This document shows, piece by piece, positions 8,978 through 16,711 of a stretch of 64,000 nucleotides of DNA. A program made the translations under genes and the position numbers. The stretch covers positions 1 to 64,000 of the forward strand of contig NZ_JAUXOY010000008.1 in NCBI RefSeq assembly GCF_030684185.1. Reading direction: 5' to 3'. The notes beneath the pieces are model-generated. The model saw nothing but the letters and a program-made list of their open reading frames with translations, was not told where the DNA came from and did no database searches. This stretch comes from Methylotenera sp. Lineage in GTDB: Bacteria > Pseudomonadota > Gammaproteobacteria > Burkholderiales > Methylophilaceae. Position 1 is the first letter of the stretch. Each line of letters starts with the position of its first letter.

Positions 8978-9370
8978 CTAATAAATATCTTTTGGGTCTT
9001 TAATAACAGGCTGATCTACCAACCAATTGCCATTTTCCAGCTTCTTAAAAAAACAATTATGACGGCCTGTATGACAAGCAATACCGCCCACCTGTTCCAC
9101 TTTAATCAGCACTACATCTTCATCACAATCAAGACGAATTTCATGTACATGCTGAACATGCCCAGACTCTTCACCCTTGCGCCATAATTTATTGCGTGAG
9201 CGTGACCAATATACCGCTTGCTTGTTATCGTAAGTCAGTTGCAAAGCTTCACGATTCATCCAAGCAAACATCAGTATGCGCCCAGTATCATATTCTTGCG
9301 CTATGACCGGCACTAAACCGTTTGTATCCCAGCTTACTTCATCTAGCCATGACTTATTTAATAATGTCAT
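8978..9370 (-). CDS. hisI: Phosphoribosyl-AMP cyclohydrolase
   Basis: A 130-residue protein with the HisI zinc/magnesium site motifs [23 protein letters not shown] and [13 protein letters not shown]. It opens the adenine ring of PR-AMP. It overlaps hisF by four bases (ATGA). Stand-alone form, without a HisE domain. Confidence 0.95.
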
Positions 9371-10131
9371 AGCCTTACTTCTATGCCATGTTGTGCCATG
9401 TATTCTTTAGCTTGTTTAACAGTATATTCCCCATAATGAAAAATACTGGCCGCAAGCACTGCATCTGCACCACCTATCGTTACACCATCTACCAAATGCT
9501 GCAGATTTCCCACGCCACCAGATGCGATAATCGGCACATCAACGGCATTTGAAATGGCTTTATTTAGCGGATTATTAAAGCCTATTTTTGTGCCGTCTCT
9601 ATCCATACTTGTTACCAACAATTCCCCAGCACCTAGTTTGGCCATATACTCCGCCCACTTTACTGCGTCCAGACCCGTGGCCTTACGCCCGCCATGGGTG
9701 AACACTTCCCACTCAAAAGGTTGATTCTCAACTTTTTTGGCATCTATTGCGACCACGATACATTGTGAGCCAAATCGACCAGCCGCATCAGCAACCATCT
9801 GCGGGTTTAATACTGCGGTCGTGTTGATACTCACTTTATCCGCACCTGCATTCAATAATCGACGCACGTCTTCAACTTCACGCACCCCGCCACCAACCGT
9901 TAAAGGTATGAATACTTGCGAAGCCACTTGTTCGATAATATGCAGAATTAAACCTCTGTTATCAGAGCTAGCCGTAATATCTAAAAAGGTAAGTTCATCA
10001 GCGCCCTGATCATCATAACGTTTGGCGATTTCTACCGGGTCTCCAGCGTCTCTCAACTCAAGAAAATTGATGCCTTTTACTACACGCCCATCAGTCACAT
10101 CAAGGCAAGGAATAATACGTTTAGCGAGCAC
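9367..10131 (-). CDS. hisF: Imidazole glycerol phosphate synthase, cyclase subunit
   Basis: A 254-residue TIM barrel starting [12 protein letters not shown]. It carries the catalytic aspartates in [12 protein letters not shown] and [14 protein letters not shown] and the phosphate-binding GGVRE and ASGGVG loops. It works with HisH to make imidazole glycerol phosphate and AICAR. It overlaps hisA by 11 bases. Confidence 0.96.
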
Positions 10132-10864
10132 TTAATTCATCCGCAAGTTTTTGCGCCGCGGCAAAATCCAGCGCCCCCTCATAAATGGCACGGCCTGTAA
10201 TGGTGCCGATAATACCTTCACTAGCCACTGCGCAAAGTTTACGCACATCATCTAAATTAGTAACACCGCCAGAAGCAATGACCGGGATTGTTAATGCCTG
10301 CGCCAACGCAACCGTCGCCTCAATATTTACACCACTTAGCATGCCATCACGGCCAATATCAGTATAAACAATAGAGCTTACACCATAACCTTCAAATTTC
10401 TTGGCTAAATCAATCACGTCATGTCCCGTGAGTTTAGACCAGCCATCAACGGCTACTTTGCCATCTTTAGCATCTAAACCCACGATAATCTGACCAGGGA
10501 ATGCATCGCAAGCTTCATGTAAAAATCCTGGATTCTTTACGGCTGCTGTACCAATGATCACATAGTCAATGCCGTTATCTAAGTAACGTTCAATCGTCTC
10601 AAGGTCGCGAATTCCACCACCCAACTGGATAGGGATTTCACCACCTACCGCGCGTACAATCGATTTAATAGCAGCCTCATTCACAGGTTTACCTGCAAAA
10701 GCGCCATTTAAATCCACCAAATGCAAGCGCTTGCCTCCACTATCCACCCAGTGACGAGCCATCGCCCCAGGATCCTCAGAAAATACAGTAGACTCCTCCA
10801 TTAAGCCTTGTTTTAGTCTGACACAGTGGCCGTCTTTAAGATCAATTGCTGGGATTATTAACAT
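10121..10864 (-). CDS. hisA: ProFAR isomerase
   Basis: A 247-residue TIM barrel starting [17 protein letters not shown]. It is a paralogue of HisF, with catalytic Asp in AIDLKDG and in [12 protein letters not shown], and phosphate loops GGGIRD and ASGGVT. It isomerises ProFAR to PRFAR. A 93-base A/T-rich gap separates it from hisH upstream, wider than the other junctions, so an internal promoter is possible. Confidence 0.96.
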
Positions 10865-10957
10865 AGTGATTTAAGGTATATGAGTTTGATAAAGTTAAAA
10901 TTAAGTGATTAAAAATTGAATATAGTGCTAAGTAAATACCTTCAGACCTTTACTTAA

Positions 10958-11632
10958 TCAAGGTAACCAGTTTACGAAATTACTTAACATTTGCAAGCCG
11001 GCATTCGCACTTTTTTCTGGATGAAACTGCACAGCAAACAAATTATCCAAGGCAATCGCCCCTGTAAAGCGATTGGGGTACTCACTATACCCTGAAATAA
11101 TGCACTCATCTTCAGGCTGTACGTAGTAACTATGCACATAGTAAAAACGTGCACCATTTTCAATATTTTTCCATAAGGCATGCGACTGCAGTTGACTGGA
11201 GTCAGCTGAGCTATGCCAAGTTTGATACACTTGATTCCACCCCATGTGCGGCACTTTAAGCTTTTCACCGTTAGCGCCATGCATTTCAGCCGCCGCAAAG
11301 CGCTTCACATTGCCCTTTAACAAACCCAAGCCGACAGCATCGCCTTCTTCAGAATGTTCAAACAGCATTTGCAAGCCTATACAAATACCTAAAAATGGCT
11401 TATTGCCTGCCGCATGCATCACCGATTCACGAAGGCCGCGTGCATCTAATTCACGCATACAATCTGGCATTGCACCTTGACCAGGAAACACCACACGCTC
11501 AGCATTTTCTATATCTTTTGGATTGCTTGTTACAACCACATTTTTTTCTGGTGCCACATGCTCTAGCGCTTTAGACACTGAGCGCAAGTTACCCATGCCG
11601 TAATCAACCACTGCTATATCTATTTTTTTCAT
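10958..11632 (-). CDS. hisH: Imidazole glycerol phosphate synthase, glutaminase subunit
   Basis: A 224-residue class I glutamine amidotransferase. The nucleophile is the cysteine of GICIGLQMLF, and the catalytic His/Glu are in FHPEKS. The N-terminus VVDYGMGNLRSV is characteristic. It supplies ammonia to HisF. It lies between hisB and hisA. Confidence 0.96.
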   Translation of the reverse strand: MKKIDIAVVDYGMGNLRSVSKALEHVAPEKNVVVTSNPKDIENAERVVFPGQGAMPDCMRELDARGLRESVMHAAGNKPFLGICIGLQMLFEHSEEGDAVGLGLLKGNVKRFAAAEMHGANGEKLKVPHMGWNQVYQTWHSSADSSQLQSHALWKNIENGARFYYVHSYYVQPEDECIISGYSEYPNRFTGAIALDNLFAVQFHPEKSANAGLQMLSNFVNWLP

Positions 11633-11677: not shown

Positions 11678-12265
11678 TTATAAGCTTCCTTTTGTAGATG
11701 GCATGATGCCTTCCATGCGTGAGTCCAGCTCAACCGCCATACGCAGGGCGCGGCCAAATGCCTTGAAAATCGTTTCTGCTTGATGGTGGGCGTTGTGACC
11801 TTTTAGATTATCAATATGCAATGTGACATTAGCGTGGTTTACAAAACCTTGAAAAAACTCATGCACTAAATCGACATCAAACTCACCGATAGCGGCACGC
11901 GTGAAAACACATCCAAACTGTAACCCAGGACGACCAGAAATATCCAATACCACACGAGATAGCGCTTCATCCAACGGCACATAAGCATGCCCATAACGAC
12001 GTATACCTTTTTTATCTCCCACCGCCTTAGCAAAAGCCCGGCCTAATGTAATACCAATATCTTCAACGGTATGATGGGCGTCTATGTGTAAATCACCTTT
12101 GGCGTTGACGCTTATATCCATCATGCCATGGCGGGCAATTTGATCAAGCATGTGATCCAAAAAACCTAACCCTGTATTAAATTGAGAGACTCCTGTGCCA
12201 TCCAAATTAATGGCGACAGAAATTTGTGTTTCCAGGGTGTTTCTTACTACTTCAGCAGCGCGCAT
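11678..12265 (-). CDS. hisB: Imidazoleglycerol-phosphate dehydratase (monofunctional)
   Basis: A 195-residue IGPD with the manganese-binding repeats [11 protein letters not shown] and [14 protein letters not shown] and the [13 protein letters not shown] signature. It has no N-terminal HAD phosphatase domain, so histidinol-phosphatase must be encoded elsewhere. Upstream, a 280-base spacer containing the hps terminator separates it from hps. hisB therefore probably has its own promoter in 12266-12410. Confidence 0.96.
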
Positions 12266-12417
12266 ATTGATTCACTTAAGAAAGTGCGTATTAATTGACG
12301 AACAATATTTTAACCTAAACTCGATGCACTTGGGATTTTTGAGCACATTAAGCAGGCAACATTACAAATATAAAACCGAATCTTAAAACTTTACAATTAA
12401 ACTTATTCTAAAAAGAA

Positions 12418-12459
12418 CAAAGCCTAGCAAGATGTATACATTATCTTTACTAGGCTTTG
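12418..12459 (-). terminator. Probable terminator of hps
   Basis: A perfect 10-bp stem, CAAAGCCTAG (12418-12427) with CTAGGCTTTG (12450-12459), closes a 22-base loop containing the dyad ATGTATACAT. On the minus strand it is followed by a T-rich run (TTCTTTTTAG). It lies 87 bases after the hps stop and before hisB, so it should separate hps transcription from the downstream his genes. Confidence 0.65.
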
Positions 12460-12545
12460 AATTTATCAGCTTGCGCTAATTAATCACTTGCTCTCAAACT
12501 ACTCGGCAATATTTAACCAAGCAATATTAGGAAACAATCAAATAA

Positions 12546-13433
12546 TTATTCTGCAGCAGCTTCTGTTTTTGCAGCTTCAACAGCTGTAGAAACTGCATCA
12601 CCAGCAGCTTCAACGGCAGCAGCAGCTTCTGCAGCAGCCGCTTCAGTTGCCTCAACAGCAGGAGCAGAAATTTCTGCAGCTGCATCAGTAGTTTGTTCAA
12701 CAGCTTCTTTTTTGCCACCGAATAAAGTAAACAACAATACTAAAACTACAGCACCAATAATCCATGGTAAGAATTTTTTAGCGCCTCCAGCACTAGCAGC
12801 ACCACCGTGTGCAATTGCTGTGATTTCAGCAGCAGCGGCAGCAGGATCAGCAGCACCGTAAATAGCAGCACCAGCTACAATGATTGTAGCGCCCGCATCT
12901 TTAACTTGTTGTGTTGTTGCAGCCTTAACACCGCCAGCAACAGAAATATCAACACCTAAACCTAAACTTGCTACCATGTTTAAGTCATTAAATGGTGTTT
13001 GACCAGCAGCTTGTTGATCTAAACCAGTATGAACGCCAATGATGTGTGCACCTAATTTAGCCACTTCAATAGTACGTGCTTTTTTATCAGCAACGTTAAT
13101 CAAGTCAACTTGTGCTTTTTTGCCGTATTTATTAGCAACATCAATTACACCTTTGATAGTACCGATATCAGCAGTACCAAGAACTGTACAAATATCTGCA
13201 CCCGCTTTGTAGAATGGTTCAGCTTCATAGAAACCAGCATCCATTGTTTTTAAGTCAACTAAAATTTTGTTGTTAGGAAACTTAGCGCGTAAAACTTCTA
13301 GCAATTTTATACCATTGTGCTTAATGCACGGTGTACCGATTTCCAGAATATCTACGTGCGGAGCAACTTTGGTTGCTAAGGCGACGGTACCGTCGAAATC
13401 AAGTGAATCTAAAGCCATTTGGGTTTGAGCCAT
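12546..13433 (-). CDS. hps: 3-hexulose-6-phosphate synthase with C-terminal membrane segment and Ala-rich tail
   Basis: A 295-residue protein. Residues 1-210 form a complete HPS TIM barrel of the OMP-decarboxylase superfamily: EIGTP (31-35), catalytic DLKTMDAG (60-67), VHTG (134-137) and phosphate loop VAGGVK (165-170). HPS condenses formaldehyde with ribulose 5-phosphate, the entry step of the RuMP cycle. HPS is normally about 210 residues. Here ~85 residues are added: a Gly/Ala linker, KK, a strongly hydrophobic segment 221-240 (FLPWIIGAVVLVLLFTLFGG), then KK and an Ala/Glu-rich helix-forming tail to residue 295. A strong Shine-Dalgarno GGAGG lies 7 bases before the ATG. No phosphohexuloisomerase gene is adjacent. 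The catalytic assignment is firm; membrane anchoring is inference. Confidence 0.93.
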   Translation of the reverse strand: MAQTQMALDSLDFDGTVALATKVAPHVDILEIGTPCIKHNGIKLLEVLRAKFPNNKILVDLKTMDAGFYEAEPFYKAGADICTVLGTADIGTIKGVIDVANKYGKKAQVDLINVADKKARTIEVAKLGAHIIGVHTGLDQQAAGQTPFNDLNMVASLGLGVDISVAGGVKAATTQQVKDAGATIIVAGAAIYGAADPAAAAAEITAIAHGGAASAGGAKKFLPWIIGAVVLVLLFTLFGGKKEAVEQTTDAAAEISAPAVEATEAAAAEAAAAVEAAGDAVSTAVEAAKTEAAAE

Positions 13434-13440
13434 GCTACAT

Positions 13441-13475
13441 CCTCCAAAAAAAATAAATCAACATGTGATTTATTT
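13441..13475 (-). promoter_or_regulatory. 5' UTR hairpin directly ahead of the hps Shine-Dalgarno
   Basis: A perfect 10-bp inverted repeat (AAATAAATCA at 13451-13460 and TGATTTATTT at 13466-13475) with a 5-base loop. It ends five bases before the strong ribosome site GGAGG (13445-13441). It could protect the mRNA 5' end, be a translation-control hairpin, or be an operator. A second, shorter dyad TGTGT-N5-ACACA lies at 13510-13524. The A/T-rich spacer 13434-13667 must hold the hps promoter, but I could not pick convincing -35/-10 boxes. Confidence 0.5.
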
Positions 13476-13667: not shown

Positions 13668-14729
13668 TCATACAAGCAGCTCGGCAAGTGACTCTATAAG
13701 TGCTTTTGACTGACTTTCCGTGCCAATTGTAATGCGCAAATATGGGGCTATACGTGCAGGCGCTTTAAAATGACGGACGATAATGTTTTTCTGACGGAGC
13801 ATTGCAGTAAGCTCTGCACCATCTTTGTTTTTATGCTTAGCAAAAATAAAGTTAGCGCCCGATGGCAGTACATCGAAACCTAAGTTTGTTAACTCTTTAA
13901 TCAGCGATTCCCGTGTAGCGACCACTTTGCTACACGTTTCTTCGAAATACGCGACATCTTGCATGGCAGCAATGGCACCAGCTGAGGCAAAACGGTCTAT
14001 AGGGTATGAGTTAAAGCTATCTTTAACCCGAATCAATGCTTCGATTAATTCAGGAGACCCTAAGGCATAGCCAACACGTAAACCTGCTAGTGAGCGAGCT
14101 TTAGATAAAGTTTGTGTAACCAATAGGTTTGAGTAGCGATTAATCAAACCAACCGCTGATTCTGTACCAAAATCCACATAGGCTTCATCAATCACCACGA
14201 CTGATTGCGTGTTTGATTTCAATAACTTTTCAATTTTCACCAATGCCAACGGGATACCTGTCGGTGCATTGGGGTTTGGGAAGATGATTCCACCATTAGG
14301 CTGATCATAATCATCAACATTGATTGTAAAGTCATCCGCTAACGGTATTGCTTGATATTCAATGTCATACAAGCCGCAATATACCGGATAAAAACTATAG
14401 GTAATATCTGGGAACAGCAAGGGCCTGCTATGTTTTAACAGCGCTTGAAATACATGCGCCAATACTTCATCCGAGCCGTTTCCGACAAATACCTGGTTTG
14501 CATTTAAGTTGTGCGCTTTAGCAATTGCAGCTTTAAGCGCATCTGAATTAGGATCTGGGTACAAACGAAGCGACTCGGCCGCTTCAAGCTTTAACGCTTC
14601 AATCACCTTAGGGCTAGGGCCATAAGGGTTTTCATTAGTATTCAACTTAACTAAATTATCCAGTTTTGGCTGCTCACCAGGAACATAAGGCGTAAGCCTA
14701 TGAACCACATCACTCCAGAATTTACTCAT
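13668..14729 (-). CDS. hisC: Histidinol-phosphate aminotransferase
   Basis: A 353-residue class I/II PLP aminotransferase. It has the N-terminal [12 protein letters not shown] substrate motif, [11 protein letters not shown], and the PLP-lysine region [18 protein letters not shown]. The reaction is imidazole-acetol phosphate plus glutamate to histidinol phosphate. It follows hisD by six bases. The next gene downstream is the inserted hps rather than hisB. Confidence 0.95.
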
Positions 14730-14735
14730 GTTGAA

Positions 14736-16040
14736 TTAGCTTTTCAACCTATACTCAGCAGATCTGGCGTGGGCTTGCAAGCCCTCACCATAAGCTAAAG
14801 TCGCGGCTACCTTACCTAGCGTTTGCGCACCTTCTGACGACACCATAATCAAGCTTGATCGTTTTTGAAAATCATAGACCCCTAAAGGCGATGAGAAACG
14901 CGCAGTGCGAGAGGTTGGCAGCACGTGGTTTGGTCCTGCACAGTAATCACCAAGCGCCTCACAGGTGTTGCGTCCCATAAAAATGGCGCCTGCATGTTTG
15001 ATTGTTTTACTGAACGCCAATGGCTCGTCCATTGATAATTCCAAATGTTCAGGCGCAATGTAGTTACAAATTTCTGCTGCTTCAGCTAAATCACGCACTT
15101 GAATCAACGCTCCACGGTCAGTCAGTGACGTTCTGATAATGTCTTTGCGTGGCATTTCTTCTACCAACTTCAGTATGCTTGCACTGACTTTATCCAAAAA
15201 GTCCGCATCAGGGCTTAATAAAATTGCTTGTGCCAATTCGTCATGTTCCGCTTGGCTGAACAAATCCATCGCCACCCAGTCCGGGTTGGTTTTACCATCG
15301 CATATCACTAAAATCTCAGATGGTCCTGCCACCATATCAATGCCGACCACGCCAAACACACGGCGTTTAGCGGCGGCTACATAAGCATTACCTGGCCCGA
15401 CCACTTTATCTACTTGCGGCACGGTTTGCGTGCCATATGCCAGCGCGCCCACCGCTTGCGCGCCGCCTATGCAAAATACGCGGTCTACGCCACACACCGC
15501 CGCTGCCGCCAGCACCAACTGATTCTTTTCGCCATTTGGCGTAGGAACGACCATAATGAGCTCTTTAACGCCAGCCACTTTGGCTGGGATAGCATTCATT
15601 AGAACAGATGACGGATAAGCCGCCTTGCCGCCTGGCACATATAAACCTACGCGATCTAATGAAGTGACTTGCTGGCCAAGTAAGGTACCGTCAGCCTCGG
15701 TATAACTCCAAGACGACATTAGTTGCTTCTCGTGATAGATGCGCACACGGTCAGCAGCAACTTGCAAAGCTTCTCGCTGGGCTACGGGCAACCCATTTAA
15801 AGCTGCTATTAGCTCTTCTTTGCTAATTTCAAGCTCTGCCAAATGAGTTGCGTGAGTTTTATCAAATCGATTGGTATATTCCAACACGGCAGCATCACCG
15901 CGCTTTTTAACATCTTTAAGTATGCCTGCCACAACCTCATCGATGCTGTCATCTTGTGCAGTTTCAAAAGCAAGTAATGCTTTTAGTTTGCCATCAAAAT
16001 CTATGTCGGTGGTAGCAAAACATCTAATCTTCACACTCAT
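14736..16040 (-). CDS. hisD: Histidinol dehydrogenase
   Basis: A 434-residue protein of family-typical length. It contains the signatures [57 protein letters not shown] and the zinc/catalytic region YIAPEHLEL. It catalyses the two NAD-dependent oxidations from L-histidinol to histidine. It lies between hisG (29-base gap) and hisC. Confidence 0.96.
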
Positions 16041-16069
16041 ATACTTAAACCTAATTTAATTAAATTAAT

Positions 16070-16711
16070 TTATTTAGATGCAATGGCGCTTAAAAAAGCA
16101 TCCATAATCGGCTGAATTTTTTCTCGATTGAGCTTAAGCGAAGCTTGATTCACGACCAATCGTGAGCTAATGTCGCCTACTTCCTCCACAGCTTTGAGGT
16201 TATTAGCACGCAAAGTTCCTCCTGTGCTCACCAAATCGACAATCACATCAGCTAACCCCACCAATGGGCCTAACTCCATTGAGCCATACAGTTTGATTAA
16301 ATCCACATGCATACCTTTAGCGGCAAAGTGTTCGCGTGCGGTTTTGACATATTTAGTGACTACTTTTAAGCGCGCACCGCTACGAATTGAGGCGAAGTAA
16401 TCAAAGTCTTCACGTACGGCTACCATCATTTTGCATTTAGCGATTTGCAGGTCAATTGGCTGATACAAGCCTTCACCGCCATGTTCGTCTAACACATCCT
16501 TGCCTGCAATACCTAAATCAGCAGCACCATATTGCACATAAGTAGGCACATCACTGGCGCGGACAATAATCAAACGCACATCATCCCGATTCGTCGCTAA
16601 TATCAATTTACGTGAAGACTCGGGATCCTCAAGCGCTTTAATGCCTGCCGCAGCTAACAACGGCGTAGTTTCTTCAAAGATGCGACCTTTTGAGAGTGCA
16701 ATGGTAATCAT
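16070..16711 (-). CDS. hisG: ATP phosphoribosyltransferase, short (HisZ-dependent) form
   Basis: A 213-residue catalytic subunit starting [14 protein letters not shown]. It has the substrate motif [14 protein letters not shown] and the PRPP-binding [14 protein letters not shown]. It lacks the C-terminal ACT-like regulatory domain of the ~300-residue long form. Short HisG works as a hetero-octamer with HisZ, which is not in this window. It catalyses the first, feedback-regulated step of the pathway. It starts three bases after the murA stop. Confidence 0.96.

Follow-up and report, generated by a model that had tools for sequence, protein, structure and literature searches.

An apparently membrane-anchored 3-hexulose-6-phosphate synthase isoform, bound to the histidine locus and carrying either of two anchors, across the Methylophilaceae

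3-Hexulose-6-phosphate synthase (HPS) opens the ribulose monophosphate cycle and has become a target in synthetic methylotrophy, and how cells avoid being poisoned by the formaldehyde that they produce in the periplasm is an old question. The 64,000-nucleotide Methylotenera sp. stretch analysed here (the window) encodes an HPS that continues beyond its catalytic domain. The first-pass annotation had described an in-frame, extended HPS without giving a strand, and we placed it on the minus strand as a 295-residue open reading frame without internal stops (ATG 13433-13431, stop 12548-12546), in which the linker, the KK pairs, the hydrophobic segment and the tail followed one another as that annotation had laid them out (Table 1). 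Its claim of a complete barrel likewise held: residues 5-206 scored 241.4 bits in a profile search against TIGR03128 (curated cut-off 200), the sequence matched 3ajx_A in the PDB (E 3.3e-47), and the same entry was the best PDB match in a fold comparison of the modelled protein (E 2.4e-19, TM-score 0.86 by target). Residues D9, E31, D60, K62, D65 and H135, which we take to be catalytic from their roles in the HPS/KGPDC family, were invariant across 46 aligned HPS sequences and the same in the bare paralogue. The AlphaFold2 model, built on an alignment of 46 sequences, comprised a high-confidence barrel and a helix at 218-238, with pLDDT of ~84 over residues 221-240 and block means of 39-55 in the tail.

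A fused domain of known type was ruled out as the identity of the tail, since Pfam and NCBIfam gave no match past residue 211 and PHROGs gave zero matches. Characterized HPS (HxlA, TIGR03128; PDB 3ajx) shares the whole barrel, the presumed catalytic residues and the family score with the window protein, but 3ajx and 3f4w, at 207 and 211 residues, are without its extension. HPS-PHI fusions (NF041755; PDB 9lj9) also combine an HPS barrel with extra C-terminal sequence; there, however, the extra part is an isomerase domain, whereas here it is a predicted anchor, and the window protein scored 291 bits against NF041755 (cut-off 500), matching only positions 6-213 of the 391 in the profile. One hydrophobic segment of membrane-spanning length was predicted in the protein (221-240). 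Tail-anchored proteins likewise have the cytoplasmic enzyme first and a single transmembrane (TM) segment near the C terminus. Classical members have short tails, with the TM segment within ~30 residues of the C terminus, whereas ~55 residues follow it in the window HPS, and 25-110 (median 52) in 66 distinct TM tails from the family.

Table 1. Positions of the hps gene, its parts and its neighbours in the window
Feature	Position	Strand	Basis or remark
hps, his-linked copy; 295-aa 3-hexulose-6-phosphate synthase with predicted C-terminal membrane anchor	12546..13433	minus	
HPS (beta/alpha)8 barrel core, residues 1-206; D9, E31, DLKTMD (60-65) and H135 intact	12816..13433	minus	
Gly/Ala linker, residues 207-220, with KK at its end (219-220)	12774..12815	minus	
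Predicted transmembrane segment FLPWIIGAVVLVLLFTLFGG, residues 221-240	12714..12773	minus	hydrophobicity, charge bias, AlphaFold2 helix
Ala/Glu-rich tail, residues 241-295 (KK 241-242), probably periplasmic	12549..12713	minus	low pLDDT
Shine-Dalgarno-like GGAGGA, 6 bases 5' of ATG	13440..13445	minus	read from sequence
Probable intrinsic terminator hairpin 3' of hps, then U-rich run	12418..12459	minus	folding
hisC, upstream neighbour	13668..14729	minus	name by recognition
hisB, downstream neighbour	11678..12265	minus	name by recognition
hisD and hisG, upstream	14736..16711	minus	names by recognition
hisI, hisF, hisA and hisH, downstream	8978..11632	minus	names by recognition

The gene stands within a histidine cluster, between hisC and hisB, with all genes on the minus strand. 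Folding of positions 12400-12480 gave a z of -4.3, and 0 of 200 shuffles folded as well; a terminator scan reported none, perhaps since its loop limit is 8 and the hairpin loop is 9, and a promoter scan returned no more matches than in shuffles. Because GGAGGA precedes the start codon and the stop is followed by a strong hairpin and then a U-rich stretch, hps may end a transcription unit. A terminator-like hairpin between hps and hisB would also divide the his cluster into transcription units.

A second HPS of 210 residues, ending ITAIAHA, is encoded elsewhere in the same genome between transaldolase and hexuloisomerase genes (names by recognition). The two copies differ at 17 of 210 positions, none of them a presumed catalytic one, and R120 of the his-linked protein is Lys in the bare copy. 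Methylophilaceae with two HPS genes, one in a histidine cluster and one in an H4MPT cluster with HPI and transaldolase, have been described, and the two (hps1 and hps2) are ~90% identical within one genome (PMC4109929). This is the same two-locus arrangement as in the window genome, and the two-copy arrangement is thus already in print; neither extended C termini nor membrane segments nor amphipathic helices are mentioned in that paper's section on hps1/hps2.

Across a Methylophilaceae sample, in which 143 of 150 genomes had an HPS match and two HPS genes were usual, the anchor followed the locus. Among the 182 HPS proteins (genome-by-protein entries) from 114 genomes in the final sorted set, all 99 his-linked copies carried a C-terminal anchor (50 TM, 49 amphipathic helix; 0 bare) and all 77 transaldolase/hexuloisomerase-linked copies were bare, ending near residue 210 (0 anchored), linkage being counted from a hisB or hisC match (else a tal or hpi match) at any position of the retrieved stretch, adjacent or not. 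Six more copies with the amphipathic helix lay in other or cut-off settings. Tails with the helix pattern were sorted as amphipathic, those with a 19-residue mean >1.6 as TM and those of <=14 residues as bare; no tail was left unsorted among 239 open reading frames or in the final 182 proteins, and bare tails were just 3-6 residues long. Frames of <60 residues, matches of <60 bits or short of core position 190 and same-genome protein repeats were dropped before the final count. The early sample was biased to anchored copies, as best matches to a tailed query, and 38 more stretches, mostly bare, were added and all were re-sorted. The sorted set covers all but 29 of the 143 matching genomes (eight of g13, 16 of g15, and G026, G039, G064, G082 and G130).

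Named records from Methylophilaceae or unplaced proteobacterial bins, many from the same genomes as the 114-genome set, supplied 80 loci with the same distribution: 55 TM and 12 helix copies were his-linked, 12 bare copies were tal/hpi-linked, and one his-linked copy was cut by a contig end. The TM form occurs in Methylophilus methylotrophus DSM 46235 (L129), M. rhizosphaerae and Methylotenera versatilis 7, and the helix form in Methylotenera sp. RIFCSPLOWO2_02_FULL_45_14. The homologue search in the family that the first-pass annotation had proposed therefore showed that relatives carry the extension, contrary to its refuting case of absence from all of them, and its contention that the tail is no frameshift product was upheld by the same layout in numerous independently assembled genomes, among them those of isolates.

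No anchored copy was found in 10 of the 114 genomes, comprising four of g13, four of g15, G028, where HPS matches were broken by contig ends, and G145, where a second match was left out of the sorting. The eight sorted g13 and g15 genomes (1.2-1.4 Mb) had one HPS each, G092 with a second weak match; in these genera (L184-L189, L207, L208, L340, L341) the bare, tal/hpi-linked HPS was kept and the his-linked anchored copy was not seen. Because these eight have only the bare copy, anchored HPS is, as judged from gene content, dispensable within the family.

Taken together, these distributions describe an HPS isoform found across the Methylophilaceae, a family of methylotrophs, that is tied to its locus and apparently attached to the membrane by one of two interchangeable anchors; two unrelated anchors at the same position of one gene locus, and no bare copy among 99, point to selection for location, not for a particular sequence. 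The proposal that the tail tethers formaldehyde fixation to the membrane is thus well supported by sequence as regards membrane association, with the addition that about half of the his-linked copies swap the TM segment for an amphipathic helix. The sequences show the gene, its two kinds of tail, their strict tie to the locus within the sorted set and the conserved, presumed catalytic residues, and we infer membrane insertion, topology, activity and an advantage of early formaldehyde capture. We consider it rather probable that the isoform is tethered on the cytoplasmic face and captures formaldehyde from periplasmic methanol oxidation. The barrel, probably as a dimer, would stay in the cytoplasm, where ribulose 5-phosphate is, and the Gly/Ala linker would lead to a single C-terminal TM helix and an Ala/Glu tail in the periplasm; in many relatives, the same enzyme would be held at the membrane by a short C-terminal amphipathic helix, two per dimer. 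There the anchored isoform would most likely condense formaldehyde with ribulose 5-phosphate at the inner membrane face, the entry point for formaldehyde from periplasmic methanol dehydrogenase, whilst the bare copy beside transaldolase and hexuloisomerase would serve the bulk cytoplasm. Capture at this face would be the simplest benefit of an anchor, and the apparent built-in anchor on one of the two HPS copies points to formaldehyde being trapped at its place of entry into the cell.

The window genome encodes mxaI, the small subunit of periplasmic methanol dehydrogenase, and a search of it for mauA gave no match; periplasmic methanol oxidation is therefore the likely formaldehyde source, methanol being likelier than methylamine on this gene content, and the anchored HPS would presumably lie adjacent to it, as the first-pass annotation had imagined. 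A further elaboration, which we hold as doubtful, is a two-compartment fixation system in which HPS with swappable anchors would form a capture layer under the inner membrane, the TM form would extend a periplasmic Ala/Glu/Pro arm toward methanol dehydrogenase and formaldehyde would be fixed as it crosses. A conserved HPS that is tethered to the membrane in nature would, through a short C-terminal module, make formaldehyde leakage directly accessible, and its design could be borrowed for engineered methanol users. Particulate HPS was reportedly seen in older work on Methylococcus capsulatus, and our literature search, with most subscription journals outside its scope, found no title or abstract about a membrane-anchored HPS and no experiment on its localisation. 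HPS is highly transcribed in OM43-type bacteria (PMC5120137), hps is among the highly expressed genes of Methylotenera mobilis, with the copy not specified there (PMC3728764), and bringing HPS close to a formaldehyde source has already been attempted in engineered methanol users (PMC8879981).

The anchor could instead serve another end, such as a membrane partner, formaldehyde arising at the inner face (N-methylglutamate pathway, demethylases), turnover control or separation of assimilation from the dissimilatory cycle, and we give this family of explanations a modest but appreciable chance. In the window's genus, mxaI was present in 2 of 8 TM genomes versus 5 of 16 amphipathic-helix genomes and mauA in 0 of 8 versus 3 of 16, so that the idea of methanol or methylamine dehydrogenase determining the anchor type was discarded; the lack of a clear link to either gene counts in favour of some other purpose, as does a post-TM tail too variable for one conserved contact. 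Against it, searches turned up no partner bearing a matching anchor (TM piece in the window genome, helix pattern in 14 genomes), and the named loci come from this methylotroph family or from unplaced proteobacterial bins.

It is unlikely, in our estimation, that the C-terminal segments stay out of the membrane and serve instead in oligomerisation or in contacts with the barrel or some other soluble protein. An Ala-rich tail with an Ala/Glu helix could form coiled coils, and the top 19-residue Kyte-Doolittle mean in the window tail (2.46) was equalled by 86 of 20,000 shuffles of its 89 residues, so that tail composition taken alone is only moderate evidence for a TM segment; recurrence in relatives is stronger. 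Over the 66 distinct TM tails, the best 19-residue mean was 1.67-2.66, values above 1.6 being set by the sorting rule itself. A free-energy estimate for the best segment, with position weighting of our own, was <=0 in 66/66 of these tails versus >2 for any barrel stretch, and most tails share an LP[WY] start and Lys flanks, all of which speaks against a soluble role. The 11 residues around the TM start carried a net positive charge in 64/66 and the corresponding flank at its end no net charge or a negative one in 60/66, a charge bias that fits an N-in/C-out arrangement with the barrel cytoplasmic and the tail periplasmic, which is probably the topology of the TM form. Beyond the TM segment, the tails consisted of 43% Ala, 17% Glu and 13% Pro, with net charges of -3 to -21.

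Further evidence against a soluble role came from G122, in which a 288-residue protein (L201:4512-5378, G122:C33) has 53 residues that are 55% identical to the window protein over its last HPS helix, linker and TM segment. The piece is joined to a small hydrophobic protein that has another hydrophobic region, and the his-linked HPS of G122 itself is of the helix form; for the first part of the protein, the best family matches were frames of 103-143 codons that matched only about residues 4-101. Because a like piece sits in this unrelated membrane protein, linker and TM segment seem to form a membrane module that can move between proteins. The window genome was also searched for a source protein of the tail, an idea that was discarded, the TM piece giving one weak further match (E 0.54).

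Proteins of the helix form mostly end at 224-228 residues (for example, GGLFGWLKKLFS). In 44 distinct helices, position 8 was Leu in 44/44 and position 9 Phe or Leu in 44/44, the kind of residue at positions 1-6 being fixed by the sorting pattern. All 44 tails fitted a short C-terminal helix with a hydrophobic and a basic or polar face (moment 0.39-0.62). The moment of the helix LFGWLKKLFS was reached by 1149 of 20,000 permutations, and some bare C-termini scored as high; amphipathicity alone is thus mildly unusual rather than strong, and the case for the helix rests on conservation and position. In a modelled helix-form HPS, the helix spanned 216-224 with pLDDT <50, which the soluble reading can also claim. 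HPS is a dimer in solved structures and is not known to have a nucleotide switch. The short helix resembles the C-terminal amphipathic targeting helices of MinD and FtsA, although these belong to a different protein family, and the MinD helix binds weakly, two or more copies being needed (PMC6803595). A role as a general enzyme tag was rejected: in 14 genomes, the helix pattern gave 11 matches, nine in HPS genes and two elsewhere, and these two were unlike tags: one precedes the start of a porin-like frame and the other falls within a frame of 116 codons. Neither the TM piece in the window genome nor the helix pattern in the 14 led to any further protein clearly matching an anchor.

Both anchors are under purifying selection. 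In pairs of moderate divergence, uncorrected for multiple hits, pN/pS was 0.062 for the barrel and 0.347 for the TM segment among TM forms, and 0.100 for the barrel and 0.160 for the helix among helix forms; the TM segment is thus constrained, yet less so than the barrel. These values bear on the notion that the his-linked HPS does no real catalytic work, being regulatory or in decay, which we rate as very improbable. It would be in keeping with a gene inside a biosynthetic, not C1, cluster and with the his-linked copy not being seen in the sorted g13 and g15 genomes, but a barrel pN/pS of 0.06-0.10, invariant presumed catalytic residues and the few differences from the same-genome bare copy, all outside those positions, argue otherwise. 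Given these residues and the strong constraint on the barrel, the anchored copy is very probably catalytically active. A frameshift, assembly or chimera artefact, for which we found no supporting point, is refuted by recurrence in many independent assemblies such as that of Methylophilus methylotrophus DSM 46235 and can be set aside.

All trees, including the barrel tree and the constrained TM clade, were made before or without sample balancing. A HisB and HisC tree without HPS residues (quick search, LG+G4, midpoint-rooted, 101 rows, with the genome holding both types uncounted) required at least five changes between TM and amphipathic forms, of which well supported branches alone force one, and a single clade of all TM rows was marginally rejected (p-AU 0.042). 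The two forms therefore appear to switch among relatives, whilst repeated switching is not firm because well supported branches force only the one change. The TM rows all fall in a clade of 80 rows, and the remainder of the tree consists of 21 helix rows plus the genome carrying both types. With genera g11 and g18, whose divergent HPS also has the helix, this makes the amphipathic helix probably the older form. In the barrel tree (137 rows), anchored and bare copies were intermixed, with 14 changes, six of them forced by well supported branches; the anchor therefore follows the locus, not the barrel, as expected if barrels were exchanged between loci while the anchor stays, with repeated duplication as the other reading. 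G021 carries a tandem pair of his-linked hps genes encoding 301 and 226 residues (L209:6301-8101, G021:C4), one TM and one helix on identical barrels; the genes share 623 identical nucleotides from the third codon and then part into TM tail and helix.

A recurring C-terminal end, approximately DGLVGAAKDATG.A(K/Q), was observed on divergent low-complexity tails in the HPS of G149, G116, G106 and G111, and the HPS ends at L109 and L148 resemble it. Searched for in eight genomes, it matched in four, once each, at the HPS gene.

Beyond the family, strong HPS matches among 399 genomes of the order (130 matched) were confined to Methylophilaceae, the best match outside it being weak (E 2.9e-6), and a wider set of 369 genomes from the class yielded five others above the TIGR03128 cut-off. 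All nine stand-alone HPS outside Methylophilaceae were bare, two were apparent HPS-PHI fusions (L275 and L276, fusion-like by length and ending) and none was anchored, in a sorting that left out two partial G670 matches and a sub-cut-off one in G785. G782, a genome of another family, has three equal-scoring hps genes (G782:C1:3513213, 3518402 and 3523591; L282, L288 and L290) exactly 5189 bases apart, a spacing that suggests tandem triplication of a ~5.2 kb unit, and encodes an apparent HPS-PHI fusion elsewhere in the genome.
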